A stretch of DNA of 64,000 nucleotides, from the NCBI GenBank assembly GCA_040371205.1, contig AP031382.1:434001-498000 (forward strand). Direction: 5' to 3'. The stretch is from Rhodanobacter sp. (GTDB taxonomy: Bacteria > Pseudomonadota > Gammaproteobacteria > Xanthomonadales > Rhodanobacteraceae). The translations under genes were made by a program, and so were the position numbers. The notes beneath the pieces are model-generated. The model was not told the origin of the DNA and made no database searches. It worked only from the letters and a program-made list of their open reading frames with translations. Shown in pieces: positions 624 through 53,007 of this stretch (the first letter of the stretch is position 1; each line of letters opens with the position of its first letter).

Positions 624-636
624 GCGGAGCGCGACG

Positions 637-673: not shown

Positions 674-698
674 CCGCGGCACGCAGCGGCGGAAGATC

Positions 699-1370: not shown

Positions 1371-1930
1371 GGCAAGGCTTTCCAGGGGCGGAATTCGTCG
1401 CGCACCTGCGCGCTGCACAGGCGGCGGATGATCCAGCCGGACAGCGCGCAAAGCAACAGGGCCATCAGTGTGCCGAATACTTGGGCGGCGCGCATGAAGT
1501 CGTGCATGACCGACGACATGTCCGCGGGCATGCCCGGCGCGTGCAGGAAGGCGTCCATCGACCCCGCGAACCACCATTGCCAGGCCAGGCCGAGCACCTG
1601 GTACGCGATGTTGAGCCCCATCAGCCCGATGAACAGGCGACGCGCCCACTCGTGCCGGCGCAGCAGGCCGATGGCGGCGGCCAGGGTGACGGCCGCCACC
1701 AGCAGGAAGGCGCGAAAGAACCACACCATGTGCCCGAACATCCATTGCGTCGGCGCCGGCAGGCCGGGCGGCAGCGGCGGCGCGGGTTGCATCTGCATGG
1801 CCGGCAGCCACAACCACTGCAGCATCAGGTTCCGCAGCAGGGCGATCAGCGCGGCGAACCCCGCCATGCCGATGAACAGCCAGGCCAACACGGTGACGAA
1901 GGTGGAGCGCAGGGGCGGCGGCGTGGGCAT
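1367..1930 (-). CDS. Four-helix membrane protein, function unknown
   Basis: A 187-aa protein with about four hydrophobic segments (near residues 10-30, 60-80, 90-115 and 150-175), so a small inner-membrane protein. No catalytic motif is visible and I do not recognise a family. It overlaps the GST gene by 4 bases, and transcription is away from the MFS gene region. Probably co-transcribed with the GST. Confidence 0.75.
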   Translation of the reverse strand: MPTPPPLRSTFVTVLAWLFIGMAGFAALIALLRNLMLQWLWLPAMQMQPAPPLPPGLPAPTQWMFGHMVWFFRAFLLVAAVTLAAAIGLLRRHEWARRLFIGLMGLNIAYQVLGLAWQWWFAGSMDAFLHAPGMPADMSSVMHDFMRAAQVFGTLMALLLCALSGWIIRRLCSAQVRDEFRPWKALP

Positions 1931-1993
1931 GCGCGGCTCTCCATGGCGAGCGATGTGCGCAAGCTTCGCCGGCCGGCGCGTTGCTTACAACCG

Positions 1994-3268
1994 CTAAAGC
2001 GTCGCTCCTGCGGCCTGCGTGTCCTCCGCGGCGGTCTCCATGTGCAGTTTCTGCCGCCGCCGCAGGCCGGGGAACATGCCCATCCACAAGCCCACCACCA
2101 CCAGCGTGCCGATGCCGCCCAGCACCGTCGCGTTCACCGCGCCCAGCCATGCCGCGAGCATGCCCGACTCGAACTCGCCGAGCTGGTTGGAGGTGTTGAT
2201 GAAGATCGAGTTGACCGCGTTGACCCGGCCGCGCATCGCATCTGGCGTGTCCAGCTGCACCAGCGAGCCGCGGATCACCATGCTCACCATGTCGAACGCG
2301 CCCAGCGCGAACAGCGCCGCCAGCGACAGCCACAGCGCGGTGGACACGGCGAACACCAGCGTGGCCACACCGAAGCCGGCCACCGAGGCGAACATGATCA
2401 TGCCGACGCGGCGCTGCATGTCGTGCCGGGCCAGCCATACGGACATCAGCAGTGCGCCCACCGCCGGCGCCGCGCGCAGCAGGCCCAGGCCCCACGGGCC
2501 GGTGTGCAGGATGTCGCGCGCGAAGATCGGCAACAGCGCGGTGGCGCCGCCCAGCAGCACCGCGAACAGGTCCAGCGAGATCACGCCCAGCACGTCCTTG
2601 CGCTCGCGGATGAAGTGCACGCCGGCGAACAGCGTCTTCAGCGTGGCCGGCTCGCGCTTCGGCGGCGCCTGCTCGTAGCGCAGCAGCGCCATCATGCCCG
2701 CCGCGACCATGTACAGCACGGCCGCCGCGATGTAGACCACGCCAGGGCCCGCCACGTACAGCAGGCCGCCCACCGCGGGGCCGAGGATCATCGCCATCTG
2801 GAACGCCGAGCCGCTCACCGCCACCGCGCGCGGCAGGATGGCGGTAGGCACCAATGCCGGCAGCAGCGACTGCATCGAGGGTGCCTCGAAGGTCTTGGCC
2901 ACGCCGATCACGAGCACCAGCAGCAGGATGCCGATCTCGTGGATGCGGCCGAGCAGGGTGAGTGCGGCGAGCAGCACGATGGCCGTCCATTCCACCACCT
3001 GCCCGAGCAGCACCACGCGCCGCCGCTCGAACTGGTCGGCCACGTGCCCCGCCGGCAGCGCCAGCAGCACGGACGGGATGAATTGCGCCAGGCCGATCAG
3101 GCCGAGGTCGAAGGCACGGCCGGTGATCGCGTAGACCTGCCAGCCCACCGCCACCGACAGCATCTGGAAGCCGAAGCCGGAGGCGATGCGCGAGCACCAG
3201 AACTGCACGAAGGCGGGATGGCGCAGCAACGAGTCCGCCGGGGCGGACGGGGACGTGAGCTTCGACAT
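1994..3268 (-). CDS. MFS transporter, EntS/MFS_3 type
   Basis: A 424-aa major facilitator superfamily protein with about 12 transmembrane helices. The N-terminus (LLRHPAFVQFWCSRIASGFG) and the first cytoplasmic loop (HVADQFERRRVV) match the MFS_3 branch that includes the enterobactin exporter EntS and many macrolide or unknown-drug efflux proteins. No siderophore synthesis genes are nearby, so the substrate is unknown. The start chosen is the ATG at 3268, just before the conserved N-terminal helix. A TACAAT hexamer on the minus strand (3294-3299) is a plausible -10 element 25 bases upstream. Confidence 0.88.
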   Translation of the reverse strand: MSKLTSPSAPADSLLRHPAFVQFWCSRIASGFGFQMLSVAVGWQVYAITGRAFDLGLIGLAQFIPSVLLALPAGHVADQFERRRVVLLGQVVEWTAIVLLAALTLLGRIHEIGILLLVLVIGVAKTFEAPSMQSLLPALVPTAILPRAVAVSGSAFQMAMILGPAVGGLLYVAGPGVVYIAAAVLYMVAAGMMALLRYEQAPPKREPATLKTLFAGVHFIRERKDVLGVISLDLFAVLLGGATALLPIFARDILHTGPWGLGLLRAAPAVGALLMSVWLARHDMQRRVGMIMFASVAGFGVATLVFAVSTALWLSLAALFALGAFDMVSMVIRGSLVQLDTPDAMRGRVNAVNSIFINTSNQLGEFESGMLAAWLGAVNATVLGGIGTLVVVGLWMGMFPGLRRRQKLHMETAAEDTQAAGATL

Positions 3269-3293
3269 GGGAATCCTTGCCGGGGGAACGCGC

Positions 3294-3299
3294 ATTGTA
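3294..3299 (-). promoter_or_regulatory. Candidate -10 element for the MFS gene
   Basis: TACAAT on the minus strand, 25 bases before the ATG of the MFS transporter gene. The same GCTACAATGCG-like context occurs before purC (24879-24884). No convincing -35 hexamer is seen, so this is only a sequence match. Confidence 0.4.
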
Positions 3300-3338
3300 G
3301 TCGCGCATGCAGGTGCCGGCAGCGGTGTGGCCCGTGTC

Positions 3339-5141
3339 CTAGGCCTGCAGGCGCGTGAAGCCGTCCGCGCTCCAGTCCTCGCTGCCGACGCCGTGGTGGA
3401 CGAAGAACAGGCCGTCCGGATCGTACTTGCGCTTGGCCGCGGCGAGCCGCGGATAGTTGTCGCCCCAGAATCCCTGCTGCCAGTCGCGCAGGAAGTAGTC
3501 GCTCTCCGAGACGTAGCAGCCGGCGCCGGGCGCCGCGGCGCGGATCGCGTCCATCGCCTGGTCGATGGACGCCGCCTCCTGCCGCGCCTTGGCCAGATCG
3601 GGCCTGGCACCCGGCATGCCGGGGTAGGCGGGATCGCCACCGGTGGCGCAGATCAGCAGGGCGAACGCATCGAGCACCTGCGGATGGGTGGCAGTGTCGC
3701 GGGCGCGGGCGATCGCGTCGGCCGGTGCGCCGGCCAGTCCCTTGTTGAAGTGCAGGGCGAAACCCCAGTGCCGCGAAGCGGCGAACAAGGCCTCCACCAG
3801 TTGCGCCTGCCGACCCGGTTCCAGCAGCGAGGCCGGTAGCCAGGCCGACTGGTAGCCGTGGATGAACCCGCCGACCTGCTCACGGTCGCCGGCCCACACG
3901 AAGCGATAGCGCGGCGCGTCCGGGCGGTCGTCCGCGACAATGGCGCCCGGCAGGTACTTGTGCAGGAATTCGGCGTCCCAGAGATGCTGGGCCGGCGCCG
4001 CCATCACCCCGAACGGTTTGCTGATGTGGCAATCCTTGCGGGCATGTATCCAGGCAAGGAAGGGTGCCCAGGTCTGTTCCGCCTGCTGTTTGGTTAGGCC
4101 CTGGAACATCATGGAAACTTCGAAGGTGTCACCATCGTAGAACTTCATCTGCTCGCCCCAGTGCGGGTTGAACAGCGCGCGCCGGTAAAAGTCCGTCGCC
4201 TCGGCGATCAGGGCACGATAGGCCGCATCCGAATCGGCCTTGACGGTGAGATTGACGCCGCCGAAGAACTCGGGCAATGCGTGGGTGCGCAGGGTCAGCC
4301 GGGTGACCACGCCGAGGCTGCCGCCACCGCCCCCCTTGAGGCCCCAGAACAGCTCCGGGTTCGTGCGGGCATTGGCGATGCGCACCTGGCCGTCGGCGGT
4401 GACCACTTCCGCCTCCAGCAGGTTGGACGCCGCCGTGCCCCAGCGCTTGGAGAAGCTGCCGAAGCCGCCGCTCTGCACCAGCCCGGCCACGCCCACCGTG
4501 GTGCAGCCGCCGCCTTGAACGTAACGGCCACCATCGGTGGTCACGGCGTGGTAGGCATCGATCCACATCGCGCCAGCCTGCACGCTCACCGCCGGCAGCG
4601 GTGCCACGTGGCCGGCGCAGCCTTGCGGCACGAAGGCGTCGTGCAGCGCGATCCGGTTCATGTGGCGCGTCCACACCAGCAGCGAGTCCGGCGCGTCCGA
4701 GGTGCCCTGGTAGCTGTGGCCGCCGCCTTTCACCACCAGCCGCAGGCGATGCCGGCGCGCGAAGTCGACGGCCGCTACCACGTCGGCGGCGCTCTCGGCC
4801 GCCACCGCGTAGGCGCTGGGTTGCGATGCCCAGGCATCCGCCCAGCCGCTGCTCTGGGTCAGCGCGGGGTTGTCGCCCACCGCGAACGGGTTGTCCAGTT
4901 GCTTCAGCGCCTGCGAGGCATTGCCATGGGCGAACGGCGGCTCCAGCTTCTGCAGCCGTCCCCCGACCTGGCGATTCAACCCTTCCCATTCCGCCGCTGC
5001 GGGCCAGCCCGGCTGGCCCGGGCGTGGACGAAGGGTGGTCGCGAGCGTGCCGGCACCGCGCGCCAGGGCCGTGCCGCCGCGCATCAGCAGGGGCAGCAAG
5101 GGCAGGGTGGCGGCCGCCTTCAGCAAATCGCGCCTTTTCAT
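3339..5141 (-). CDS. Tat-exported FAD-linked oxidoreductase, berberine-bridge type
   Basis: A 600-aa flavoprotein. The N-terminus MKRRDLLKAAATLPLLPLL has a twin-arginine signal, so it is probably folded with FAD in the cytoplasm and then exported. A PCMH-type FAD-binding domain follows (about 110-290), with GGGHSYQ (His142) and GGGCTTVGVAG (Cys213). These are the two positions that carry the bicovalent flavin in berberine-bridge-type enzymes. The C-terminal BBE motif is NYPRLAAAKRKYDPDGLF. Such enzymes oxidise sugars or aromatic and alkaloid substrates; the substrate here is unknown. The start at 5141 is chosen because it begins the Tat signal and has a GGAG upstream. Confidence 0.88.
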   Translation of the reverse strand: MKRRDLLKAAATLPLLPLLMRGGTALARGAGTLATTLRPRPGQPGWPAAAEWEGLNRQVGGRLQKLEPPFAHGNASQALKQLDNPFAVGDNPALTQSSGWADAWASQPSAYAVAAESAADVVAAVDFARRHRLRLVVKGGGHSYQGTSDAPDSLLVWTRHMNRIALHDAFVPQGCAGHVAPLPAVSVQAGAMWIDAYHAVTTDGGRYVQGGGCTTVGVAGLVQSGGFGSFSKRWGTAASNLLEAEVVTADGQVRIANARTNPELFWGLKGGGGGSLGVVTRLTLRTHALPEFFGGVNLTVKADSDAAYRALIAEATDFYRRALFNPHWGEQMKFYDGDTFEVSMMFQGLTKQQAEQTWAPFLAWIHARKDCHISKPFGVMAAPAQHLWDAEFLHKYLPGAIVADDRPDAPRYRFVWAGDREQVGGFIHGYQSAWLPASLLEPGRQAQLVEALFAASRHWGFALHFNKGLAGAPADAIARARDTATHPQVLDAFALLICATGGDPAYPGMPGARPDLAKARQEAASIDQAMDAIRAAAPGAGCYVSESDYFLRDWQQGFWGDNYPRLAAAKRKYDPDGLFFVHHGVGSEDWSADGFTRLQA

Positions 5142-5286
5142 CGTGGGTGGCTCCGGCTGGATGGAAAGCGGCCAGCATGGTGCGGTGTGCCCGTCCTTCC
5201 CAGCGTGGAGTGACGGATCGCCGGTGGTCAGGGACAGGCCGACCCTGGCGTGGGACGGGGCGCGCGGGGATTCCGCCGCAGCCACG

Positions 5287-5292
5287 TACAAT
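5287..5292 (+). promoter_or_regulatory. Candidate -10 element immediately before the LytTR gene
   Basis: TACAAT ends only 7 bases before the ATG at 5300. If this hexamer is used, transcription would begin at or next to the start codon, giving a leaderless or nearly leaderless mRNA. No good -35 is visible. Confidence 0.4.
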
Positions 5293-5299
5293 CGACAGG

Positions 5300-6178
5300 A
5301 TGAACGAGCAGGCGGATGCCGGATACAAGGACTTTCAGCGCTGGCCGCGGCCGGTCGAGGTGGCTTTCTGGGTGGCGTTGTACGCGCTCAACACGGTCTT
5401 CAACGGCCTTGTCGCGCAGATCGACCATGCCCGCACGGCGGCCTGGGAGCCGTGGGTGTGGGAATCGAGCAGCGCGCTGCTGATCCTGCTGCTGATCCCC
5501 TTCGTGAAGATGGTGGAGCGGCGCTGGCCCTTCCGCTTCGACACCTGGCGCTACAGCCTGCCGTGGCACCTGCTGGCCAGCGTGGCGTTCAGCCTGGTGC
5601 ACGTGGCCGGCATGGTCGGGCTGCGCAAGCTGGCCTACCTGGCGGTCGGCCAGCATTACCGCTTCGGCGCCTGGTGGCCGAACTTCGGCTACGAGTACCT
5701 TAAAGACATCCGCAGCTATTTCCTCATCGTCGCGCTGATCTGCCTGTCGCGGTTGTGGCTGCTGCGCCAACAGGGCGAGGCGAGGTTGCTGGCCGAGCCG
5801 GACGACGGCCCGCCGGTGGAGCCGTTGGAACGCCCCGAGCGTTTCCTGGTACGCAAGCTGGGCAAGGAATTCCTGCTCTCCGCCAGCGAGATCGAATGGC
5901 TGCAGGCCGCGGGCAACTACGTGAACCTGCACGTGCGCGGGCGCGACTATCCGATGCGCAGCACGATGGCCGGCATCGAGGCGCGGCTGGACCCGGCGCG
6001 TTTCCTGCGCGTGCATCGCGGCTATTGCGTCAACCTGGACTACCTCGCGGAGATCGAGCCGCTGGATACCGGTGACGCGCGCCTGCGCCTGCGCGACGGC
6101 ACCATGATTCCGTGCAGCCGCCGTTACCGCGCCGCACTGCGCGAGCGCTTCGGCGGGCAGCCTGTCACGGACGAATGA
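5300..6178 (+). CDS. Membrane-anchored LytTR-domain transcriptional regulator
   Basis: A 292-aa protein with about four membrane helices in the first 160 residues (near 18-38, 50-70, 88-110 and 135-155). A LytTR DNA-binding domain follows (about 188-290: FLVRKLGKEFLLSASEIEWL, then RFLRVHRGYCVNLDYL). There is no receiver domain, so it is not a classical response regulator. The membrane part probably senses a signal or anchors the DNA-binding domain, as in other membrane LytTR proteins. It is divergent from the Tat-exported oxidoreductase, a possible target. Confidence 0.88.
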   Translation: MNEQADAGYKDFQRWPRPVEVAFWVALYALNTVFNGLVAQIDHARTAAWEPWVWESSSALLILLLIPFVKMVERRWPFRFDTWRYSLPWHLLASVAFSLVHVAGMVGLRKLAYLAVGQHYRFGAWWPNFGYEYLKDIRSYFLIVALICLSRLWLLRQQGEARLLAEPDDGPPVEPLERPERFLVRKLGKEFLLSASEIEWLQAAGNYVNLHVRGRDYPMRSTMAGIEARLDPARFLRVHRGYCVNLDYLAEIEPLDTGDARLRLRDGTMIPCSRRYRAALRERFGGQPVTDE

Positions 6179-6240
6179 GCTTGCGCCGCGGCGCGCGATC
6201 GTTCCAAGCTAACCGTTGCTCCCGCCCTGGATGATTCGCG

Positions 6241-6978
6241 ATGACGACCGCGCCGCTACGTTTCCGCTTCGCCCCAGCCGCCCTTGCCGGCGCGCTGATA
6301 CTGGCCGGCTGTTCGCAGGGAGGCGCCCCCGCGCCGGACGCCGCGCAACAGCAGGCGCAGGCGCAGGCCGCCGAGGCGGCGCGCGATCTCGACACCTATC
6401 GCCAGCTGCTGCGCATCCACAACGACCAGATGGCGTCGTCGATGGGCGAGGACATCGTGCGGCGTTTCCCCGGCAGCGCCGCGGCGAAAGAGGTGCAGCA
6501 GACCTTGCCCGAGGTCGAGAAGCGCTGGAAGGAGAACAGCGAGAAGGCGCGCCTTGCCGCGTTGTGGCAATACCAGGTGGCGCCGATGGCGGGCGGCACG
6601 CAGTCCACCGCGGCGATCTACGACAGCCGGCCCGCCGACGTGCGCGTGCGGCTGGTGCTGCGCCGGCACACCAGTTGGGGCCAGAGCGCGTTCCTGTACA
6701 GCGACACCCACGGTTTCGTCTGCAGGGGCGACTGCACCATCGCGGCGAAGTTCGACGACAAGCTCCATCCGATCAAGGCCTATGCGCCGCCCACCGGCGA
6801 GCCGGCGCTGATGATCCGCGACGACAAGGGCTTCATTGCGCTGCTGGAGAAGTCGAAGACGGTCAGCCTGCCCGTCACCATGCAGGACGGCGAGAAGAAG
6901 GTGGAGCTGGTCTACGAAGTGGGCGGCTTCGTGCCCGGCCAGTGGCAGGCTTTGCCCAAGAAAGGCGGCAAGAAGTAG
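6241..6978 (+). CDS. Putative lipoprotein, function unknown
   Basis: A 245-aa protein with a lipoprotein signal peptide ending in LILAGC (Cys24). An Ala/Gln-rich helical stretch (about 30-50) follows, then a mixed domain containing the motif CRGDCTIAAKFDD. The cysteine pair in that motif could form a disulfide in the periplasm. I do not recognise a named family. It lies 63 bases after the LytTR gene and is followed by a second small lipoprotein gene on the same strand. Confidence 0.8.
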   Translation: MTTAPLRFRFAPAALAGALILAGCSQGGAPAPDAAQQQAQAQAAEAARDLDTYRQLLRIHNDQMASSMGEDIVRRFPGSAAAKEVQQTLPEVEKRWKENSEKARLAALWQYQVAPMAGGTQSTAAIYDSRPADVRVRLVLRRHTSWGQSAFLYSDTHGFVCRGDCTIAAKFDDKLHPIKAYAPPTGEPALMIRDDKGFIALLEKSKTVSLPVTMQDGEKKVELVYEVGGFVPGQWQALPKKGGKK

Positions 6979-7040
6979 CGCGGTGCACCGGCCGCCAGCC
7001 GGTGCGTTTCATCAAGCATCGCCCCGGAGGAGTGGCAGCC

Positions 7041-7493
7041 ATGTTCCGCAAGATCCCTTGGATGACCGTGGTGCTTTCGCTGTCGCTGGGCGCGTGCTCC
7101 AGCGTGCCCTACGCGCAGCGGATGGCCGAGCGCCAGGCGGCCTATGCGGCCGCGGCTGGCGCGCCCGTGCGCAGCTTCCATTTCTACGACCTGTACTCGT
7201 GGGAGCCGCTGGGCGACAGCCAACTGGCCGTCTATACGCAGGTCAACCGCGCCTGGCTGCTGGACGTGGGACCGTGTCCGAACCTGGAGTACGCCAACGC
7301 GATCGGGCTCACCTCGTTCACCGGCGACGTGTCGGTAAACTTCGACAAGGTGCTCACTGGACGCGGCTTCCCGCCGTGCTTCATCTCGAAGATCCGCCCG
7401 GTCGACGTGGCCAGGCTGAAGCTGGCGCAACAGGCGCAGCGCAAGATCGATGCCGAATCGCGCGAACAGGATTCGGCCCCGGCCGGCCACTGA
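7041..7493 (+). CDS. Small lipoprotein, DUF6491-like
   Basis: A 150-aa protein with a lipobox (SLGAC, Cys19). The sequence SFHFYDLYSWEPLGDSQLAV followed by cysteine-containing VGPCPNLEYANAIGLTS resembles the DUF6491 family common in Xanthomonadales (family name recalled, not searched). Role unknown. The ATG at 7041 follows a clear GGAGGAGT ribosome site. The stop lies 10 bases from the convergent universal stress protein gene. Confidence 0.8.
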   Translation: MFRKIPWMTVVLSLSLGACSSVPYAQRMAERQAAYAAAAGAPVRSFHFYDLYSWEPLGDSQLAVYTQVNRAWLLDVGPCPNLEYANAIGLTSFTGDVSVNFDKVLTGRGFPPCFISKIRPVDVARLKLAQQAQRKIDAESREQDSAPAGH

Positions 7494-7503
7494 GCCGCGC
7501 CGG

Positions 7504-7917
7504 CTAGCGCACCACCGTCACCGGCACGTGCGCGCGCGCCAGCACGTTGTCGGAAACCGAACCGATCAGCCAGCGCGCCAGCGCGCCGCGTTCGGTATGT
7601 CCGATCACGATGTGGTCGATGCCGTGCTGCTCGACCTGGCTCAGCAGCACGTCGCCCGGCGCGCCGTGGGTCAGCTCGACGTCGACGAGGCGCGCGGCGT
7701 CGGCGTCCAGCGCGGCCAGTTCGTCCTTCAGCTCCTGCACGCGCTGGATGCCAGGATCGGTCATCATCAAGGCGCAGGTGTCGCCGCCTTCGGCCACCTG
7801 CAGCACCGACACCACGCGCACCCGTCCGCCGCAACCCCGCGCCAGCTCCATCGCGAAGGCGAAGGCGCGGCGCGCGGCGTCCGAACCGTCGTAACCGACC
7901 AGCGAATGCTTGGGCAT
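7504..7917 (-). CDS. Universal stress protein (UspA family)
   Basis: A 137-aa single-domain Usp. It opens with HSLVGYDGSDAARRAFAFA and ends with the nucleotide-binding glycine motif IVIGHTERGALARWLIGSVS, followed by VPVTVVR. The GHxxxG-type motif suggests an ATP-binding member. The ATG at 7917 is preferred over one 15 bases upstream because AGGAG lies at the right distance. Expression is probably stress-induced in general; nothing in the sequence shows how. Confidence 0.88.
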   Translation of the reverse strand: MPKHSLVGYDGSDAARRAFAFAMELARGCGGRVRVVSVLQVAEGGDTCALMMTDPGIQRVQELKDELAALDADAARLVDVELTHGAPGDVLLSQVEQHGIDHIVIGHTERGALARWLIGSVSDNVLARAHVPVTVVR

Positions 7918-8108
7918 GCTTGCTCCTGTCATGGCGAGACCGTGTCGGATGCAGTGTGGCTGCGGCCGCGTTAGCGAAACATCAAGCTAGATGAACGGAA
8001 GCGCGCGGGACTCACACCGTCGTCACGATGCTCCGTCGAGGCTGGATCGCGTGTCCGGCCGGCAAGTCCGGCGGAACGCGATGACCCCGCAAACCGTAGG
8101 AGACGACA

Positions 8109-8567
8109 ATGAACAAGCGCACCCTCGCCCTGACTGCCGCCCTGCTGCTCGGCACGGGCACCCTGGCTGTCCTGCCTGTCGCGCCCGTCCATGCCGCCGA
8201 GGCCAACGTGAAGTGCCACCTCGATTTCAACCTGTCGGGTTGGTCGATCCTCTACAAGCACGCCGAAGGCAGCGGCACCGTGCGTTGCGACAACGGCCAG
8301 CAGGCCGCCGTGAAGATTGCGGTGGTGGGCGGCGGGCTCACCGCCGGCAAGTACCGCATCGACCATGGCACCGGCGACATCACGCATGTGCGCAACATCG
8401 ACGATGTGTTCGGCGACTACGCGCAGGCGAGCGCCGAGGCCGGCGTGGTGAAGAGCGGCACCGTGCAGGTGCTGACCAAGGGCACCACCTCGCTGGCGCT
8501 GGCCGGCCATGGCGAAGGCGTCAACCTCGGCGTGTCGGTGGGGCGTTTCACCATCAGTCCCCGTTGA
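8109..8567 (+). CDS. Secreted protein of unknown function
   Basis: A 152-aa protein with a Sec signal peptide (cleavage after PVHAAEA, about residue 33) and no further membrane segment, so probably periplasmic. The mature part is a Gly/Val-rich beta-type sequence with one cysteine pair (KCHLDF and VRCDNG). I do not recognise the family with confidence. A good ribosome site (GGAGACGAC) precedes the ATG. A hairpin terminator follows. Confidence 0.78.
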   Translation: MNKRTLALTAALLLGTGTLAVLPVAPVHAAEANVKCHLDFNLSGWSILYKHAEGSGTVRCDNGQQAAVKIAVVGGGLTAGKYRIDHGTGDITHVRNIDDVFGDYAQASAEAGVVKSGTVQVLTKGTTSLALAGHGEGVNLGVSVGRFTISPR

Positions 8568-8589
8568 ACGACGCGGCCGCGTCACGGAC

Positions 8590-8617
8590 GGAGGGCGCCG
8601 CAAGGCGCCCTTCGTTT
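8590..8617 (+). terminator. Intrinsic terminator with GCAA tetraloop
   Basis: An 8-bp stem (8592-8599 with 8604-8611), a GNRA-type GCAA loop and a short T-rich tail. It lies 25 bases after the secreted-protein gene and before the peroxiredoxin promoter region. Confidence 0.7.
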
Positions 8618-8662
8618 GCGCGGCGGCGTACACTGGGCACTGCCATTCCATGGAGTGCCGCC

Positions 8663-9208
8663 ATGCGCCGCCTTTCGCTGTTGTTTGCCCTGACCTTGCT
8701 CTGCGGCCTGCTCGCCGCGCCCGCATTCGCCGCCGATGCCGCCATGCCGCAGGCCGGCACGGTCGCCCCGACCTTCCGCCTGCAGGACCAGAACGGCCAT
8801 TGGCGCAGTCCCGCCGATTACCGCGGCCATTGGCTGGTGCTGTATTTCTATCCCAAGGACTTCACGCCCGGCTGCACCACGGAGGTCTGCACGTTCCGCG
8901 ACGACATCGCCAAGCTGCGCCAGGCCGGCGCTTCCGTGGTGGGCGTGAGCCTGGACGACATGAAGTCGCATGCGGACTTCGCCGCCAAGTACCACGTGCC
9001 GTTCCCGCTGCTGGCCGACACGGACCGCAAGACGGCCACCGAATACGGCGTGCTCAGCAGCATGGTGGGCATGCACTACGCCAAGCGCACCACCTTCCTG
9101 ATCGATCCACAGGGCCGGATCGCCAAGGTCTACGTGGACGTCGATCCCAAGGCGAACTCCAGCCAGGTGCTGGCCGACCTGGCCGCGCTGAAGAAGACGG
9201 CGCACTGA
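8663..9208 (+). CDS. Exported thioredoxin-dependent peroxiredoxin, BCP/PrxQ type
   Basis: A 181-aa peroxiredoxin with a Sec signal peptide (cleavage near PAFAAD), so it should reduce hydroperoxides in the periplasm. The catalytic motif FTPGCTTEVCTF holds the peroxidatic cysteine and, five residues later, the resolving cysteine of the atypical 2-Cys PrxQ class. VLYFYPKDFTPG and the TTFLIDPQGRI strand are also typical. Its stop overlaps the next start (TGATG). The reductant partner is not in view. Confidence 0.92.
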   Translation: MRRLSLLFALTLLCGLLAAPAFAADAAMPQAGTVAPTFRLQDQNGHWRSPADYRGHWLVLYFYPKDFTPGCTTEVCTFRDDIAKLRQAGASVVGVSLDDMKSHADFAAKYHVPFPLLADTDRKTATEYGVLSSMVGMHYAKRTTFLIDPQGRIAKVYVDVDPKANSSQVLADLAALKKTAH

Positions 9209-12103: not shown

Positions 12104-12427
12104 ATGCATCGATACCTGCGGGCCAGCCTGCTGGCGGCGGCCTTGTCCGCCTGCGCGGGCATGGCCGTCGCCACCGACAGCCTGCGCGTGGGCAGCCGCG
12201 TGCTGGTGGTGGGCGACAGCGCGGCCACGGTGCTCGACCTGCTCGGCAAGCCGTCGCACAAGTCGCATCGTGGCGCGCGCAGCGGCGGGCGTCGCGGCCG
12301 GCACGTGCGCGCGGCCTCCGGCGGCACGGCATCCAGCGAAACCTGGCAGTACCGCCGCGACGGGCGGGTGATCGTGATCACCCTGGCCGACGGCCGCGTC
12401 AGCGACATCGACGAGCGCAGCCGCTGA
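12104..12427 (+). CDS. Small secreted protein, DUF2845-like
   Basis: A 107-aa protein with a Sec signal peptide (cleavage near GMAVATD). The mature part binds a typical DUF2845/SmpA-like pattern: DSLRVGSRVLVVGDSAATVLD, a Lys/Arg/Gly-rich loop, then ETWQYRRDGRVIVITLADGR. This fold is seen in small periplasmic proteins. Role unknown. GGGGAG precedes the ATG. The gene is convergent with the ABC permease/peptidase gene. Confidence 0.7.
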   Translation: MHRYLRASLLAAALSACAGMAVATDSLRVGSRVLVVGDSAATVLDLLGKPSHKSHRGARSGGRRGRHVRAASGGTASSETWQYRRDGRVIVITLADGRVSDIDERSR

Positions 12428-12457
12428 ACTTGCTCTGCGGCCGCGCCCGCGACGGGT

Positions 12458-15400
12458 CTACTGCAACGTCACCGTTTTGCGGTTGTCGTCCGGCACCTTG
12501 TCGATCAGTTCGTTGTACGGGTCGATGCCGGCCGTCGCGGGCACGCCGTCCACGGTCACCGTGATCGTGCTGTCGCCCTCCGGCAGCCGGCGCTTGGCGA
12601 GGTACAGCGGCTTGCCGTCCTTGCCGCCGCCGGGCGCGGCGGCGAACACGCCGATGTCGATGGGAATGTTCGGCGCCACCGGCGTCTCCTTGCCCTTGCC
12701 GTCGGCATAGGCCATGGCGGCGTGCACCTTCAGGGTCACCGCGTACTTGCCGCCGGGCAGTTTCTTCGCGGTGGCGTCCAGCATGCGGTCGTCGAACAAG
12801 GTGATCCGCCAGAAGAAGTCGTCCAGCATCGGTTGCCACTGCGGCCCCAGCGCTTTGCCCAGCGCATCGACGAACTCCTTCGAGGTGGTGTAGGGCGGCT
12901 GCTGGAAACCCTTGCCGAGCAGGAACTGCTTGAGGAAGGCATCCAGCCAGTCCTCGCCCACGTAGTCCTGCAGCGCGTAGAACACCAGCGAGCCCTTGCG
13001 GTAATGGATGTAGGGCTGGTTCTCGACCTTGCCCAACGGTTCCTCGGCGACCTTCTCGGCGGCGCGGCCGGCGAGGTACATGTCCAGTTCGTACCTGAGG
13101 AACTTGCGCATCTGGTCGGCGCCGTACTTGTGCTTCATCACCATCAGCGAGCTGTATTGCGCCAGCGATTCGCTGAGCAGGGTGGAGCCCTGCATGTCCG
13201 CGCCGATCACGCGGTGCGCCCACCACTGGTGCGCCACTTCGTGCGCGGTGACGTCGTAGACGTAGTCGATGTGGCTGGCGTCGCGCAGGTCGGCGATGAA
13301 GCCGATGGACTCGGAGAACGGGATGGTGTTGGCGAAGCTCTGCGCGAGCGTCATGTAGTCGGGGAACTCGACGATGCGCAGCTGCTTGAACTGGTAGGGC
13401 GTGTAGTGGCTGTCGTAGTACGCGAGCGAGTCCTGCGCGCTCTCCAGCATGCGGTCCACGTTCCACGCGTGCGCCGGGTTGTAGTACACGGTGACCTTCA
13501 CGCCGTTGGCGTCGATGCTCCTGGTGGCGTAGCGCGCGGACAGGTACGCGAAGAAGTTCAGCATCGGCCGCTGCATCGTGTAATGGAAGTAGCGGCGGCC
13601 GCCTTGCGTCCATGCCTTCACCAGCGTGCCGGGCGCCAGCGCGATCTGGTCGGCGGCGGTGGAGACGGTGGTGTCGAAGCTGATCCAGTCGGCGTCGTTG
13701 CTGATGTAGGTGTTGGCGCGCGCCTTTTCGTCGCCCAGTGGCGGCATGCGCGGCACGTCAAGTTTAAGGCCGTACTTCCTGCGCTCGTTGCGGTCGCTGA
13801 GCTGGACCCTGGACTGGTAGCCGAACTGCGGCAGCAGCGCGTTGTTGAAGAACGTGCCGTTGTGCACCAGGAAGGTTTCTCCGGTGCCGTTGGTGAAGCC
13901 CTTCGGCGCGTAATCGATGTCGAATTCGAACGGCATCGAGGCGCCCGGCGCCAGCGGCGTCTTCAGCCTGTAGATCGCCACGCCGAGGCGCTTGTCGAAG
14001 CTGGCGGTGTCGTGCGGCGCGAAGCTTAGCGTCCTGGGCACGAAGCCGTCGGCGTAGTTCACCAGCAGCTCGGTCACCGGCACGTCGCGCTTGTTGACCA
14101 GGGTGTAGCGCGCGTGGATGTGCAGCTGGCGATGGTAAGGGTGGATGTCCACGTCGGCTTGCACCGCGGTGATGCGCGGCTGCGGCAGGTCGGCGTACTT
14201 CGCGTATTCCTTTTCGTAATCGGCGCGTTCGCGCTGCTGCTCGGTGCTGCTTTCGAAGTGGTTGAGCACGTGGGTGTTGTAGTAGACGAAGCCGCCCAGG
14301 CCGGCGAAGCCCAGCAGCGCGGCGGCCAGCATGGCCGCGAGGCCGGGGTGCAGCCGCGCGCGCGCTTCGCGCAGGCGGCCGCGCCAGTCTGCGCCGGTGC
14401 CGCGCGGCCACAGCAGGGCGGCCGCCGCCAGCATCGCCAGCGCCAGGCAGGTCCAGTAGGCATCGAACCACAGGGCGCCCACGACGAAGTGGCCGAAACC
14501 GTTCAAGTCCGAGTACGGCACGTCGGGCGCGCTGCCGTAGTTGTAGAGCCTGTCTTCCCAGTGCAGCAGGTCGAAGGCCAGCGAGCTGGCCAGCCACAGG
14601 ATGCCGGCGAGATAGCCGAGGAACTTGTTGTTGCACGCCACCTGCAGGAACAGCGCCAGCGCCGCCGCCAGCACGAACGGGATCGCCTGCAGCCCCAGCA
14701 TGGACAGGTACAGGCCGGGCTGCAGGCGGGTATAGCCGTGCGCGAGCTGCCAACCCATGCCCACCACGGCACCGCTGGCGAGCATGACGGCGATGACCGC
14801 CAGCAGCGCGCCGAACTTGGCCAGCAGCGGTACCCAGTCGGGCACGGGGAAGGCGTCGCTGACTTCGGCGGAGCGGCACTGGCGCTCGCGCCAGACCAGT
14901 TCGCCGGCGTAGAACAGCAGCACGATCATCAACGGCAGGTTGAAGCTGCCGGTGATCGCCGTAAGCACTTGGTGAGTGACCGGCCAGGTCGGCGTGCCGT
15001 AGATCAGCCCGCCCATGGCCAGCGTCACCAGCATCAACACCACGGCCAGCACCAGCAGCACCAGGAAAGCCGCACCTTGCAGCACGCCGCGCAGGTCGAA
15101 CAGGAATTGCGCGCGCAGCTGGGCCAGCCGCGCGCGCGCGTCGTGCGCCAGCGCCGCCTTCGGCAGTGCCAGTGCCGTTGCGCCGGCCTGCGGGCGCAGC
15201 AGCGGCGGCTCGGCGCGCGGCTTGCGGCGCGGCAGCCGTAGTCCCTCGCGGTCGGTGCGGAACAGCGCAAAGCTGGCCGCCAGCAGCAGTGCCGAGACCG
15301 CCAGCCACAGCAGGCGGTTGAACAGCAGCACACCGTCGAGCGCGGGCAGCAGGTGGTTGGTCTGGTCGGCGGTCCAGTAGCGGGTGACCAGTTGCAGCGT

Positions 15401-49110: not shown

Positions 49111-49154
49111 GGCGGGAGAAGCCTTGATTGCGGGGCGTACCACGGAGAACCCCC

Positions 49155-49664
49155 ATGCTCGATCTCAACAGTCCGCGGTGGGGTGACCTGACGCATGCCT
49201 ACGGCAAGGCGTCGGACGTCCCTGCGCTGCTTCTTCAACTGGCTACATTGCCGCCGTGCGACCTGGAACAAGAGCCCTGGGCATCACTCTGGGGCGCGCT
49301 TGCCCATCACGGTGATGTCTACCCTGCTTCGTTTGCCGCGGTTCCACACGTAGTCGCAGCTCTCGCAACGAATCCGTTAAAGGCCGATTCCGCTTATTTC
49401 CAGTTTCCGGCATGGGTCGAGTGCTGCCGTGCCCGCAACAACGTCGTCATACCAGACGATCTCGTCGCGCCCTATCGGCAGGCGTTGACCCGGCTTCCGC
49501 AGTTGGTTGCCGATGCAAGCAAGCGCCCTTGGGATGAGGAGTTCATGCAATGTGCCCTCGCTGCCATCGCTGCTGCAAAAGGCGCAACCGTCGTTGCGGA
49601 AGCCGCCATGGAACTCGATTCTGTAACCGCAGGACAGTTTCTGGAATGGTTTCACGGCCGTTAG
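49155..49664 (+). CDS. Orphan protein, possible stand-alone immunity-type family
   Basis: A 169-aa soluble protein starting MLDLNSPRWGDLTHAYGKAS and continuing with PWASLWGALAHHGDVYPASF, then AAVPHVVAALA. This WxxLWxxLxHxGDVYxASxAAVPH pattern is one I recall from scattered hypothetical proteins, sometimes beside toxin loci, but I cannot assign a function. No signal peptide. It begins a run of small, lower-GC, same-strand genes after the conserved ABC operon. GGAG lies near the ATG. Confidence 0.65.
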   Translation: MLDLNSPRWGDLTHAYGKASDVPALLLQLATLPPCDLEQEPWASLWGALAHHGDVYPASFAAVPHVVAALATNPLKADSAYFQFPAWVECCRARNNVVIPDDLVAPYRQALTRLPQLVADASKRPWDEEFMQCALAAIAAAKGATVVAEAAMELDSVTAGQFLEWFHGR

Positions 49665-49734
49665 GCTAAGACCTGCTTCTGATCCGAAACGATCAGTTTG
49701 TATGTGAACTCCACCAGGGTCCTAAGGACACGAA

Positions 49735-49953
49735 ATGTTGGAAGCCATACCCGTCGACTTCAACAATGCGGATGCGGACGGTGCGGTGCGTCTTGAGACA
49801 AAAGGCGTGCTCAATTTCTTACGGTTGCGCTCGATCGAGTTGGCCGAAGGCATGATAGTCATCATTGCAGATGATGGGTTGATTGCACGTGCACTTGTGA
49901 CTATGCGCGATGGCATATGGGTGGCCAGAATCGAAGGGTGGCTCGACAACTGA
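49735..49953 (+). CDS. 72-aa small protein, unknown
   Basis: A short acidic, soluble protein (MLEAIPVDFNNADADGAVRL at the start, ending ARIEGWLDN). AAGGA lies at proper distance before the ATG, supporting translation. No motif recognised. It sits between two intergenic spaces in the cassette-like region; a small perfect hairpin (49680-49697) lies upstream. Base use is lower in GC than the neighbouring core genes. Confidence 0.6.
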   Translation: MLEAIPVDFNNADADGAVRLETKGVLNFLRLRSIELAEGMIVIIADDGLIARALVTMRDGIWVARIEGWLDN

Positions 49954-49992
49954 TAATGTGTGTCAGGCGCGTGTTCGGAGGCAGTGGCGGAA

Positions 49993-50019
49993 TTCGACCC
50001 AAAGCGGACACTGATGCAA
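49993..50019 (+). repeat. 27-nt intergenic motif, copy A
   Basis: Begins TTCGACCCAAAGCGGAC and ends TGATGCAA. It matches copy B (50468-50494) at 23 of 27 positions, and both lie in gaps between small orphan genes. Key core is CGACCCnAAGCGGAC. Confidence 0.65.
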
Positions 50020-50084
50020 CGCGTGCCTTCACGCCCTGCCTGCGGATTGGGGGCTGGCTGGAATAAGTCCTGAGGTGAGTACGA

Positions 50085-50420
50085 ATGGTCAGGAAGCTTG
50101 GATTGATTACTGGGCTATTGGCTCTGGTATTTGGGCAAGTAAGCGTGGCCGGAGCCGAGGAACGCCCCAAGTTAAGTGCGTCCGGCCTTGAGCGGATTTA
50201 CACCTGCGCCGAGGTCGCGCATCGTCTTGCGGCGGACGATGCGTCCGCTCAGGACATCGTGATCAAGGCGTTGGAACAGGCCTATCCGGAAGTTCGATCG
50301 AAGAGTGGAGAACTTCACTTGCAGGCCAAGCAAAAGGTTGACGCCATGCTGACGGACTCGGAGTTGCGTCAGTTCGATAGAGAACAGTGCACGAGGGCCG
50401 TTGTCAAACGGATCATCTGA
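50085..50420 (+). CDS. Small secreted protein, unknown
   Basis: A 111-aa protein with a Sec signal peptide (cleavage near SVAGAEE, about residue 24). The mature 85 residues are charged and helical, with two cysteines (YTCAEV and REQCTR) near its two ends that could pair. No family recognised. A member of the cassette-like gene run, with lower GC than the chromosome around it. Confidence 0.62.
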   Translation: MVRKLGLITGLLALVFGQVSVAGAEERPKLSASGLERIYTCAEVAHRLAADDASAQDIVIKALEQAYPEVRSKSGELHLQAKQKVDAMLTDSELRQFDREQCTRAVVKRII

Positions 50421-50467
50421 TGTCGGACATTCTTTGTGTCCGCCACAACAACTCGGCAATACCCGCT

Positions 50468-50494
50468 TTCGACCCGAAGCGGACCTTGAAGCAA
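50468..50494 (+). repeat. 27-nt intergenic motif, copy B
   Basis: Begins TTCGACCCGAAGCGGAC and ends TGAAGCAA. With the bases just before it, CCGCTT pairs with AAGCGG, so the copy can form a hairpin. It is 23/27 identical to copy A. Confidence 0.65.
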
Positions 50495-50521
50495 TGAGCC
50501 AACAATGCGCTGAGGAAGGCT

Positions 50522-50926
50522 ATGAACTATCCGCGAATCTTGGCTTTTTCGCTGCTTGTGCTCCTTGCGTTGCTTCTTCCCGGACTGACACTAGCCATGA
50601 TGCTGGGATGGGAGCCGCTCCTTTTTGGCCATACCCCGGAAGAGGCTGGTATGAGCTTTCAGCTGATCGAGCAAGTAGCCACCAATACGGCCGTGATCCT
50701 TACCTACGTATGGCTTCTTTGGCCGATAACCGCGAAGCTCTTGGCGCATGCCGCAATCGTTTTCTTTGCCGTAGAAGCATTCCAATCAGTGCTTGGTCTA
50801 ATCTTTTGCGGTGCACTCGCGGACGCCCTCGCCTGGCAGGCATTTCTCGCCGATGCACTCTATGCAGCGATTGGAGTACTACTTGTGATCGTGTGGCGTT
50901 CGATACGTCCAAGGCTGGCTAGGTAA
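50522..50926 (+). CDS. Small membrane protein, unknown
   Basis: A 134-aa protein with about four hydrophobic helices (near 5-28, 52-72, 74-95 and 105-125). A strong AGGAAGG site precedes the ATG. No family recognised. It lies directly before the clearest attC-like site, so it is the likely content of an integron cassette ending at that site. Confidence 0.65.
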   Translation: MNYPRILAFSLLVLLALLLPGLTLAMMLGWEPLLFGHTPEEAGMSFQLIEQVATNTAVILTYVWLLWPITAKLLAHAAIVFFAVEAFQSVLGLIFCGALADALAWQAFLADALYAAIGVLLVIVWRSIRPRLAR

Positions 50927-50946
50927 TGCCCGTGATCGGTGTGAGC

Positions 50947-51002
50947 GGCTAACAGTTCATCCGCGCGGATAGCTTCGCCGCCGCTTAACTCAAGCGTTAG
51001 GT
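50947..51002 (+). repeat. attC-like integron recombination site 1
   Basis: A 56-bp element starting GGCTAACAGTTCATCC and ending CTTAACTCAAGCGTTAGGT. The right end carries the core GTTAGGT (50996-51002, consensus GTTRRRY). The left end GGCTAAC is close to the inverse core (RYYYAAC). The CTTAACTCAAGCGTTAG segment is identical to that in well-known aadA-type attC sites. Recombination would occur between G50996 and T50997. It sits 21 bases after a gene stop, as expected for a cassette. Confidence 0.78.
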
Positions 51003-51018
51003 TTACAGGGAGATGACC

Positions 51019-51291
51019 ATGAGCCTTACTGGTATAGCGTCGACCGCAGGTACAACCACATCCAGCATTGAGAGGCTAATCAACGATGGCACAGGCAGCG
51101 CTGGTCTCGCGTCGTCAATCGGCACGACCAGTTCATCCATTACAAATTTCGTCAATGGGCAGGCCTCTGCCGGCATTGCATCAGCGCTTGGCACTACGAC
51201 CAATAGTGCTCAAGAGCTTCGGGACCTCATCGGCCGAGACGGAGCTATTGGGCTAATTATTGGCCTTGCGTGTGGGCGCGGCGGCAAGTAA
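51019..51291 (+). CDS. Cassette-encoded 90-aa protein with three internal repeats
   Basis: A Ser/Thr/Gly/Ala-rich small protein with three tandem units of about 23-25 residues: GIASTAGTTTSSIERLINDG, GLASSIGTTSSSITNFVNGQ and GIASALGTTTNSAQELRDLI. A hydrophobic Gly-rich end follows (GAIGLIIGLACG). The ATG at 51019 is preferred over 51013 because AGGGAG is 6 bases away. It fills a cassette of about 309 bp between attC-like sites 1 and 2. It might insert in membranes or self-assemble; no known function. Confidence 0.65.
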   Translation: MSLTGIASTAGTTTSSIERLINDGTGSAGLASSIGTTSSSITNFVNGQASAGIASALGTTTNSAQELRDLIGRDGAIGLIIGLACGRGGK

Positions 51292-51311
51292 ACCTAACTC
51301 CAGCGTTGGGC
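51251..51311 (+). repeat. attC-like site 2, degenerate left half
   Basis: The right end CCTAACTCCAGCGTTGGGC (to 51311) matches site 1 in the pattern TAACTCnAGCGTTRGGY and has a valid core GTTGGGC (51305-51311). The left half, within the gene end, is poor: GGGCTAAT instead of RYYYAAC. A central CTTGC/GCAAG pairing is possible. The right end is the well-supported part. Confidence 0.55.
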
Positions 51312-51320
51312 TGCAATCAG

Positions 51321-51803
51321 ATGAGCAACCGAGTATTTCTCGGATTCATTGCACTTCTCCTCTTGCTTGGAATCTACCTCGGGTGGCTTCTAGCGAATCG
51401 CCCGTCGTTTTCGATTCCGGCCTTGCTGAACGTTGCTGGCATCGGATACAGCATCCTTGCCATCATCGTGCTTTACGAAACGGTCGCGCAGGACGAAAAC
51501 CTCAAAGCAGTGATCGTCTCGTACGTAGCACCGTTTCTGCTCTGGGCGCAAACGATGGTTCCGTTAGGCGTCACCGCATCATGGTTCTTGATCCGAAATC
51601 TCCATCACGGAAATGAAGTGGCCGCGCTCAGCCTCTCGCTCTTCGCTTACTCTATTTTGCCGCTGTCGTTTGTCGATGCTACGGTCACCTTTCCGAGAAT
51701 CGCAAGATTCAAACCGCTTGATGGTCGCTATCGGAGATTCGGCCTCTTTCTGTTGCTGAGTGGCTTGGTAATGCAGTTAATCGCGGCGTTGGCGGCGCTG
51801 TGA
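51321..51803 (+). CDS. Small membrane protein in a cassette, unknown
   Basis: A 160-aa protein with about five hydrophobic helices (near 6-24, 33-52, 62-85, 95-115 and 135-157). It starts 10 bases after the core of attC-like site 2, a spacing typical of cassette genes that lack their own promoter. No family recognised. Confidence 0.62.
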   Translation: MSNRVFLGFIALLLLLGIYLGWLLANRPSFSIPALLNVAGIGYSILAIIVLYETVAQDENLKAVIVSYVAPFLLWAQTMVPLGVTASWFLIRNLHHGNEVAALSLSLFAYSILPLSFVDATVTFPRIARFKPLDGRYRRFGLFLLLSGLVMQLIAALAAL

Positions 51804-51848
51804 CATTGCAGCCCAGCCCGGCAAAAAGCCTCGCAGGACGGTTAGTTC

Positions 51849-51875
51849 TACGTTGAACGTCCGCTTCTGGCCGGT
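51849..51875. repeat. Related intergenic motif, inverted copy C
   Basis: Contains GTCCGCTTCTGGCCGG, whose complement (CCGGCCAGAAGCGGAC) resembles the core of copies A and B. Just upstream, GTTGAAC at 51853-51859 also fits the GTTRRRY pattern, so this may overlap a decayed attC site. Weaker than A and B. Confidence 0.4.
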
Positions 51876-51924
51876 TCCTGCCGGTGGCTCACACTGATCT
51901 GCATGAGCGTCGTCGCCGAACAAC

Positions 51925-53007
51925 TCACCCAAACAACTCATACTGCGCCGCATAACTGTCGGCATCGATGAAGCCAGCCAGCCCCACGCCGACGAGGCGG
52001 TAGAGCGCGTCGGCGGGGCGTTCCACTCGTTCGCGCAGGGCGCAGGCGATCTCGGCCAGTTCGTGTTCGGAGGCCGGGCGCTGCGAGGGCGTGAGGCTGC
52101 GCGTCAGCGTGTGGAAGTCGGCGGTCTTGAGCTTCAGCACCACGGTGCGTGCGATGCGGCCTTCGTCGGCCTCGCGCTGGTGCGCGGCCCAGGCCTTGGC
52201 GGCGAGCCGGCGGATGTGCGGCTCCAGTTCGTCCAGCGTGAGGTCGTGTTCGAAGGTGTCCTCGGCGGAGACCTGCAGCGTGGGGCGGTCGGGCGTCACC
52301 GGGTGGTCGTCGATGCCCAGCGACAGCTCGTGCAGGCGCCGGCCCCAGCGCCCGAAGCGCTGTTCGAGTTCCGCCGCCGCGAACGCGCGCAGCTCGCCCA
52401 CGGTGGCCAGGCCCAGCGCGGCGAGCTTGCCTTCCATCACCTTGCCCACGCCGGGCAGGCGGCCGATCGGCAGTGGCGCGAGGAAATCCAGCACCTCGCG
52501 CGGACGCACCACGAACAGGCCGTCGGGCTTGCGGAAATCCGAGGCGATCTTGGCGAGGAACTTGTTCGGCGCCACGCCGGCGGAGGCGGTGAGCTGGGTT
52601 TCCTCGCGGATCGCGGCGCGGATCGCCTCGGCGGTGGCGGTGGCCGAGGGCAGGCCGGTTTTCGTCTCGGTGACGTCGAGGTAGGCCTCGTCCAGCGACA
52701 GCGGTTCGATCAGCTCGGTGTGCCGCGCGAAGATCTCGCGCACCTGCCGCGACACCGCCTTGTAGCGCGCGAAATCCGGTGGCACGAAGATCGCCTGCGG
52801 GCACAGGCGTTCCGCGCGTACCGCCGGCATCGCGGAGCGCACGCCGAACTTGCGCGCCTCGTAGCTGGCCGCGCACACCACCGAGCGCGCGCCGCGCCAC
52901 GCGACCACCACGGGCTGGCCGCGCAGCGAGGGATCGTCGCGCTGCTCCACCGACGCGTAGAACGCGTCCATGTCGACGTGGAGGATTTTGCGGGGAGGCG
53001 TGGGCAC
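51925..53007 (-). CDS. dinB: DNA polymerase IV (Y-family)
   Basis: A 360-aa translesion polymerase. Catalytic carboxylates lie in HVDMDAFYASVEQRDD and PLSLDEAYLDVT. Also present are the SYEARKFGVRSAMP finger segment, the GVAPNKFLAKIASDFRKPDG palm and the PIGRLPGVGKVMEGKL helix-hairpin-helix. The C-terminus lacks an obvious beta-clamp QLxLF motif; it ends AQYELFG. SOS control is usual for dinB, but no LexA box was recognised upstream. Confidence 0.96.
   Translation of the reverse strand: MPTPPRKILHVDMDAFYASVEQRDDPSLRGQPVVVAWRGARSVVCAASYEARKFGVRSAMPAVRAERLCPQAIFVPPDFARYKAVSRQVREIFARHTELIEPLSLDEAYLDVTETKTGLPSATATAEAIRAAIREETQLTASAGVAPNKFLAKIASDFRKPDGLFVVRPREVLDFLAPLPIGRLPGVGKVMEGKLAALGLATVGELRAFAAAELEQRFGRWGRRLHELSLGIDDHPVTPDRPTLQVSAEDTFEHDLTLDELEPHIRRLAAKAWAAHQREADEGRIARTVVLKLKTADFHTLTRSLTPSQRPASEHELAEIACALRERVERPADALYRLVGVGLAGFIDADSYAAQYELFG

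Follow-up and report, generated by a model that had tools for sequence, protein, structure and literature searches.

The present work concerns a low-GC insert in the genome of Rhodanobacter sp. (assembly GCA_040371205.1; contig AP031382.1, called C1 here, which is the whole genome in one contig of 3.48 Mb) and a short repeat found in it, designated the GACCC element. The insert lies in a window of 64,000 nucleotides (C1:434001-498000) that was analysed at its full length, and positions below without a contig name are those of the window. The insert is, with a little more than even probability, a decayed mixed cassette array, in which an integron part is combined with a part that belongs to a second cassette system. 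The GACCC element is very probably a cassette boundary. The wider reading, to which a probability of about 0.38 is given, is that Rhodanobacteraceae, and enterobacterial prophages in a single-copy form, possess a so far undescribed site-specific system with a double-stranded core site of ~30 bp that has conserved arms and a variable centre, at which single-gene cassettes would be captured, kept in integron-like arrays and swapped by a putative trans-acting recombinase, and at which variable phage genes, including AbiH-type defence genes, would likewise be exchanged. An earlier note on this DNA had read the insert as the remnant of an integron cassette array, akin to the clusters of attC sites lacking an integron integrase that are abbreviated CALIN, and its claims are considered below where the results bear on them.

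The GACCC element and its arrays

The GACCC element is an inverted repeat of ~30 bp with an asymmetric centre, AAtGTCCGCTTy-CGACCC-raAGCGGACaTT, and is a second repeat of the insert beside attC. The two copies in the window are not attC and were overlooked in the earlier note; the reversed pattern, which served as a control, has 0 matches in the window at up to 5 mismatches.

49986..50009, + strand: copy 1 of the GACCC element, with a decayed left arm (4 of 24 letters mismatched)
50461..50484, + strand: GACCC element copy 2 (2 mismatches of 24)
51855..51865, + strand: AACGTCCGCTT, a weak candidate for the left half of a GACCC element, not relied on (7 mismatches over the whole element)

Extra decayed elements at 49672, 50924 and 51855 were rejected, since matches equal to theirs occur at 108, 293 and 69, respectively, of 4000 random insert places.

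At up to 3 mismatches the element is present in 64 of 117 genomes of the family, with as many as 80 matches in a genome (a few places match on both strands and are counted twice), and the reversed pattern gives 7 matches in total. The array set consists of 40 stretches picked for their element richness and one further locus (L175), which together make 41 loci from 12 genomes and contain 348 copies at up to 4 mismatches. L190 duplicates part of the DNA of L226 and is left out of these counts, in which no copy is entered on both strands. The boundaries of the element are sharp, with the information in the 348 copies falling to approximately background beyond about positions -3 and +26. Neighbouring elements within 3 kb of each other have the same orientation in 287 pairs and opposite orientations in 1, the lone opposite pair being in L225 of genome G304 (3134- and 3867+). 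In the 247 units of at most 1.1 kb, the longest open reading frame (ORF) of at least 60 amino acids (aa) is on the element strand in 194 cases and on the opposite strand in 31, with none in 22; the distance from the stop codon to the next element has a median of 19 bp (10th-90th percentile 2-136 bp, 211 ORFs), and the median length of all 285 units is 521 bp. The 211 cassette proteins form 189 families, of which 170 are singletons, and scans of 145 family representatives with Pfam and PADLOC returned scattered families, the commonest in two members, with five PADLOC models represented by at most two members each. By analogy, these arrays look like integron cassette arrays.

Most of the array cassettes carry the element only and no attC. 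When the 40 array stretches (624 kb) were searched with a covariance model (R1), 6 attC sites came out at E<0.01, as compared to more than 300 elements; 5 of the 6 have E<1e-6. Three sites are in L239, two in L238 (G002) and one in L245 (G304). The arrays are accordingly not made up of cassettes bounded by attC. Four of the six sites (in G304 and G002) are embedded among elements or adjoin them, always on the element strand, and three of the four end 0, 45 and 61 bp before an element; the remaining two (L239:330-387 and 700-757) have no element within 1.5 kb. Integron cassettes thus do enter GACCC arrays, as in the window. No description of arrays punctuated by such an element was found among the papers listed in the literature searches, judged by their titles or the opening of their abstracts, in a collection with few subscription journals and no preprints. 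The 15-mers and the peptide forms of the element have no match in the literature text searched, and among the matches listed for its 11-mers none is by its title about a bacterial repeat. The peptide forms arise where mechanically called ORFs, such as those at 546-1049 (-) and 2161-3969 (+) in L231, read through the element or a variant of it as FDPKRT or IGQKRT, and these peptides may mark the element inside misannotated proteins.

The homology of recurring cassettes is bounded by the site on both sides. A blastn comparison among the first 20 loci gave 39 matches, 6 of which have both ends at elements on both sequences (82-99% identity); several of the others have one end at an element, and the remaining ones match ordinary genes at a distance from any element. 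One cassette occurs in G316 in three copies with 95-99% identity and different neighbours each time, and another is common to G281 and G304 (82%). After 4 of 51 homologous unit pairs had been discarded as the same DNA, both outer flanks were found to differ at 21 or more of 36 letters in 46 of the remaining 47 pairs, the exception being a tandem repeat with 16 differences on one side. A cassette tends to keep the two arms that face it, namely the right arm of the element upstream and the left arm of the one downstream, and the other arms go with the neighbours: at the 20 junctions with at least 88% identity the outer halves differ at 81 of 260 positions and the inner halves at 22 of 260, and at the 13 junctions below 88% the corresponding figures are 62 of 169 and 25 of 169, compared with a baseline of ~0.34 for unrelated elements. 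Exchange takes place at the element.

The insert beside dinB

The insert and its features are as follows.

49111..51924, no strand assigned: low-GC insert between the convergent genes for an ABC-type permease (+, end 49110) and dinB (-, 51925-53007)
49155..49664, + strand: ORF of 169 aa, no family, origin undecided; first gene of the insert, without a Pfam match at E<=1 and absent from 22 dinB loci
49735..49953, + strand: ORF of 72 aa, no family, cassette-like, with element copy 1 downstream
50085..50420, + strand: cassette-like ORF of 111 aa, flanked by element copies 1 and 2, no family above cut-off
50522..50926, + strand: ORF of 134 aa, hydrophobic, no family, with attC downstream and relatives beside GACCC elements
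50947..51002, + strand: attC, complete, 5' side diverged (38.7 bits, with E 5.7e-8 over the window and E 3.1e-6 over the whole genome)
51019..51291, + strand: ORF of 90 aa, repetitive, no family above cut-off, read as an integron-type cassette gene, between the attC and the half-attC
51291..51311, + strand: attC remnant, 3' half, no hairpin, immediately behind a stop codon (agrees with the 3' end of attC in 17 of 21 letters)
51321..51803, + strand: ORF of 160 aa, hydrophobic, no family above cut-off, with one relative (G078) between two elements

The earlier note had described small orphan ORFs on one strand with a lower GC content than their surroundings, and both points are borne out. The GC content of the insert is 0.560, compared to 0.678 for the window, and the minimum among 306 insert-sized sliding windows (0.5597, start 49201) overlaps nearly the whole insert. 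The five ORFs from 49735-49953 to 51321-51803, like all six ORFs of the insert, have no Pfam match at cut-off and no NCBIfam match at E<=1; Rfam gives nothing in the window at gathering scores.

The attC at 50947-51002 was evaluated with a covariance model built from six of the ten sites in the host's own integron array, with the window site left out, which is the kind of search that the earlier note had proposed. The runner-up in the window scores 12.9 bits (E 0.55), and the site is almost certainly genuine. The 3' end of attC occurs in the window at up to 4 mismatches solely in this site and at 51291-51311, and the latter was missed by the covariance model; on one reading of its letters, its hairpin may have been lost between the TAAC words at the two ends. 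The description of one clear and one partial attC thus stands. It was also correctly stated that the window holds no integrase gene, since all 11 PF00589 places of the genome lie outside it, and the suggestion that the integrase lies elsewhere was right because the genome holds an intact IntI with ten attC-like sites ~106 kb from the insert. This integrase (C1:376887-377828; TIGR02249, 482 bits against a cut-off of 265) is the sole integron integrase over the cut-off in the genome and adjoins the array of ten sites (C1:378563-384871), so that the two together form an integron. The complete integron occupies 888-8872 of locus L017 (C1:376000-395999), and a 362-aa ORF, L017:5041-6129(-), which resembles an IS110/IS1111-type transposase, sits within one of its attC sites.

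The genome-wide attC search, in which 150 of 4,273 candidates were scored, gave 17 sites at E<1e-4. Apart from the window site and the array of ten, these are a row of three at C1:3290750-3291613 and three solitary sites, at 863059, 3048251 and 1562419. The three sites in a row (L185) score 76.7-80.7 bits, and this row is a better CALIN candidate than the insert. The single sites are scattered in the genome (C1:863059, 1562419, 3048251 (-)) and are possible single-cassette insertions at secondary sites.

If the whole insert were an integron cassette array minus its integrase, as the designation CALIN-like implied, then the real attC and the half-attC would be accounted for, and it is consistent with such an origin that the same genome has an intact integron and a three-attC row without a nearby integron integrase. 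The usual threshold for a CALIN, however, is two attC sites, the default stated in PMC12444791, and the insert has a single complete attC, found by the model, together with one half-site found by letters alone. In addition, a different repeat occupies two other gaps between the genes, and the relatives of ORFs 50522 and 51321 adjoin GACCC elements in 4 of 7 places, with no attC found in the 7 loci. The reading of the whole insert as an integron remnant was rejected on these grounds, and it is the most improbable of the explanations considered.

The relatives of the ORFs were sought at E<=0.001 in 398 genomes sampled from the order, 397 of them besides the genome itself. ORF 50522 has relatives in 5 of the 397 (6 places, two of them in G304) and ORF 51321 in 1 (G078, 32% identity). 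Elements stand on both sides of the relative in 3 of these 7 places, namely G112 (30% identity to ORF 50522), G078, and G304 (68% to ORF 50522, with a half-decayed upstream element, of which only the right part is left, and an intact element), and on one side in G024. The other 3 places have no flanking element; they are a broken copy in G316, a place near a contig end in G238 and the second, partial copy in G304. No attC was found in the 7 loci. ORF 50522 is followed by attC in the window, but by a GACCC element in its G304 and G112 relatives. ORF 51019 was found in its own genome only, 1 of the 398, and searches of plasmid proteins with ORFs 51019 and 51321 as queries gave no matches. The ends of the genes within the insert differ correspondingly: ORF 51019 ends at the half-attC, and ORFs 49735 and 50085 end at a GACCC element.

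The earlier note had assigned ORFs 50522, 51019 and 51321 together to integron recombination. This assignment holds for ORF 51019, which runs from attC to half-attC, and is not supported for ORFs 50522 and 51321, which have relatives beside GACCC elements at places where no attC was found. Judged from the sequence, ORF 51019-51291 alone is best read as an integron cassette, and ORFs 49735, 50085 and 50522, and probably 51321, as cassettes of the second system. On this reading integron recombination brought in the attC, ORF 51019 and the half-attC, the probable source being the host's own integron, which lies 106 kb away and would have acted in trans, and ORFs 49735, 50085, 50522 and probably 51321 would be second-system cassettes bounded by the ~30-bp element.

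Comparison with relatives places the insert at a variable locus. The dinB of the window is nearest, among named genomes, to those of Dyella and Rhodanobacter, and the six ORFs are absent from all 22 other dinB loci compared (~6-8 kb beyond dinB in each); neither of the outcomes that the earlier note had named as contrary to its claim, the lack of an above-threshold attC score at both sites or the same gene order in all relatives, occurred. The permease gene adjoins dinB in 7 of the 22 loci. The gap between the two genes is ~20-60 bp in Rhodanobacter sp. C05, G006 and G014, and holds unrelated content of ~490 bp in G010, ~690 bp in G013, ~1330 bp in G008 and ~3140 bp in G007. An attC-like 3' end follows an ORF in G013 (16 of 21 letters), and in G008 there is another (15 of 21 letters, by eye only) as well as the right part of a GACCC element between ORFs; the attC-like traces of both genomes were not recovered by model R1. 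In G001, which has no permease gene there, a GACCC array lies ~2 kb beyond dinB, with a decayed attC (19.5 bits, E 0.039) directly 5' of an element. From these sequences, the permease-dinB gap is an insertion hot spot between convergent genes.

It is unlikely that the insert is merely foreign DNA patched together by chance where a gap between convergent genes tolerates it, with the attC and the elements as incidental passengers, although unrelated content does occupy the gap in other species and neither attC nor element was found in the ~3.1 kb of G007. In the insert, the two elements, the attC and their genes have the order and strand that an array would predict, two of the insert genes have relatives that are array cassettes elsewhere, and arrays with both types of site occur in other genomes.

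The same arms in plasmids and E. coli prophages

The arms of the element, joined to other centres, were found in plasmids at 318 places in 224 of 72,556 records at E<=10 (Pantoea 84, Klebsiella 56), three of which were inspected, and in 518 of 5,426 E. coli genomes. At nine prophage or phage loci inspected in E. coli, six different left contexts are joined to one phage backbone at the arms. These contexts are a DUF4209 gene; a hypothetical gene; a regulator gene that, as annotated, runs into the site with its end and has a putative acetyltransferase gene beside it; a gene that is annotated as a chaperonin in one strain out of three; a hypothetical gene read in the opposite direction; and AbiH, accompanied by one or two neighbouring genes. 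The left-arm bases of the site vary with the context, and the site is invariant to the right of its position 7. The 40 bases that follow are identical at 37-40 of 40 positions among eight of the loci and at 25-28 of 40 between these and the ninth. At these loci (L305-L313, E. coli prophages and the phages Tritos and Evi) the variable spot lies beside a DUF977 gene, in several cases next to hokD. The occurrence of the same arms at a point of gene swapping in prophages suggests a shared exchange site for phage accessory genes.

Mechanism of exchange

Under the proposed mechanism, a putative trans-acting recombinase would bind both arms of the double-stranded element, and strand exchange within the element would define a cassette as a right arm, a gene and a left arm, so that a cassette set free would be circular and contain a single element. 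A hairpin mechanism was rejected on pair counts equal to those of independence. The arms mutate independently, without arm-to-arm covariation in 191 copies: positions 3 and 20, for example, combine as C-A in 39 copies, T-G in 24 and T-A in 3, and Watson-Crick pairs number 115, compared to 120.8 expected if the arms are independent.

The principal alternative is that the element is an ordinary dispersed repeat, REP-like or terminator-like, which stands after genes, and that the cassettes are shuffled by RecA-dependent or phage-encoded recombination at short homologies between the repeats, with no dedicated recombinase. Lambdoid phages are known to recombine at short homologies, and in plasmids the arms are also met as isolated copies. 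The alternative does not readily explain the co-orientation of 287 pairs to 1, the position of the element right after the stop codons of successive genes, or the fact that left and right arms keep different neighbours; in its terminator version, the hairpin should show compensatory changes, and none are seen. It is a substantial alternative, although still a doubtful one.

Several results weigh against the site-specific reading, and the first of these, which also favours recombination at short homologies, concerns the position of the crossover. When a single fixed crossover point is assumed, the best fit to 34 junctions is at positions 9-11, within the CGACCC centre. When upstream and downstream junctions are fitted separately, however, the best points differ, upstream junctions being fitted best at 17 and downstream junctions at -1 (position 9 is 2.7 ln units worse). 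A model in which crossovers are spread over the element fits better by 11.5 ln units; in a second version its advantage is 8.2 ln units and falls to 1.8 ln units worse as more mutation is allowed, so that a spread of crossovers is at least as good a fit as a central point, and the fits do not confine the exchange to the centre.

The second concerns the enzyme. Scanning 143 of the 190 ORFs of at least 170 aa in the first 20 array loci did not identify a recombinase beside the arrays; among the 25 commonest of 130 Pfam families there were 3 Phage_integrase matches. Two of these, beside one array each of G304 and G316, are 49% identical and have relatives in G002 outside the arrays of the set, and G003 has arrays but no integrase of this type at E<=1e-8. 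In L225 (G304), phage-type integrase genes, one of them a fragment, lie at both ends of the array (3134-3806 and 12417-13750), ~25 and ~50 bp from a GACCC element. A 361-aa integrase family is present in G002, G003, G325, G000 and the element-poor G031, and no recombinase of G304 or G316 matches it. The comparison of tyrosine recombinases at E<=1e-8 leaves only two common to five element-rich genomes, both Xer-like (a label assigned from score and length, without a family search) and both also found in five poor genomes; the lack of a common tyrosine recombinase other than Xer is a further point for the short-homology alternative. IntI was rejected as the element recombinase, and is probably not that enzyme: no IntI over the cut-off is present in five of the six genomes with at least 10 elements (G002, G003, G016, G027, G033 and G034), which are the genomes covered by both the IntI and the element surveys, in assemblies that are 99-100% complete, some of them in many contigs.

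The remaining contrary points concern the window itself. Its element copies are decayed, near-identical copies of its cassettes were not found, with ORF 51019 having no relative in the genomes of the order, and the attC and element traces at the permease-dinB locus of G008 and G013 are weak. When all of this is considered, judgement leans slightly toward a dedicated site-specific mechanism over short-homology recombination.

Comparison with known systems and significance

Integrons are the textbook gene-cassette platform, and the GACCC arrays resemble chromosomal integrons and CALINs in their tandem, co-oriented cassettes, which are mostly single genes of unknown function with a site close after the stop codon; the insert, moreover, holds one genuine attC. 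The GACCC element differs in its length of ~30 bp, in a sequence that is not that of attC, and in arms that lack hairpin-type covariation. Furthermore, the change of neighbours takes place inside the element, whereas in attC recombination it takes place at the R' GTT end, and full IntI is missing from five of the six element-rich genomes.

Sites in pdif modules alternate in orientation, whereas GACCC arrays consist of co-oriented single-gene cassettes, and the GACCC arms have no visible likeness to dif. The pdif (dif) modules of Acinetobacter plasmids depend on XerCD (PMC12907356, PMC7399989). Like the GACCC element, their site is ~28-30 bp long, has a short centre flanked by arms of ~11 bp and delimits mobile genes. 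The possible use of host recombinases in trans would be a further likeness.

REP and REPIN elements, which go with RAYT transposases, are likewise short palindromic intergenic repeats in many copies. The GACCC element differs from them in that its asymmetric centre sets one orientation, which 287 of 288 neighbours share, that its cassettes recur with both ends at elements, and that its arms do not covary. In lambdoid phages, short conserved boundary or linker sequences stand at the junctions of unrelated modules, and the arms play such a role in the nine E. coli prophage and phage loci; in Rhodanobacteraceae, by contrast, the site builds long chromosomal gene arrays rather than the borders of single phage modules.

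If the site-specific reading is true, the GACCC arrays would be a second widespread kind of cassette array, and much of the orphan-gene diversity of these bacteria would be stored and shuffled by machinery that is invisible to attC-based finders.

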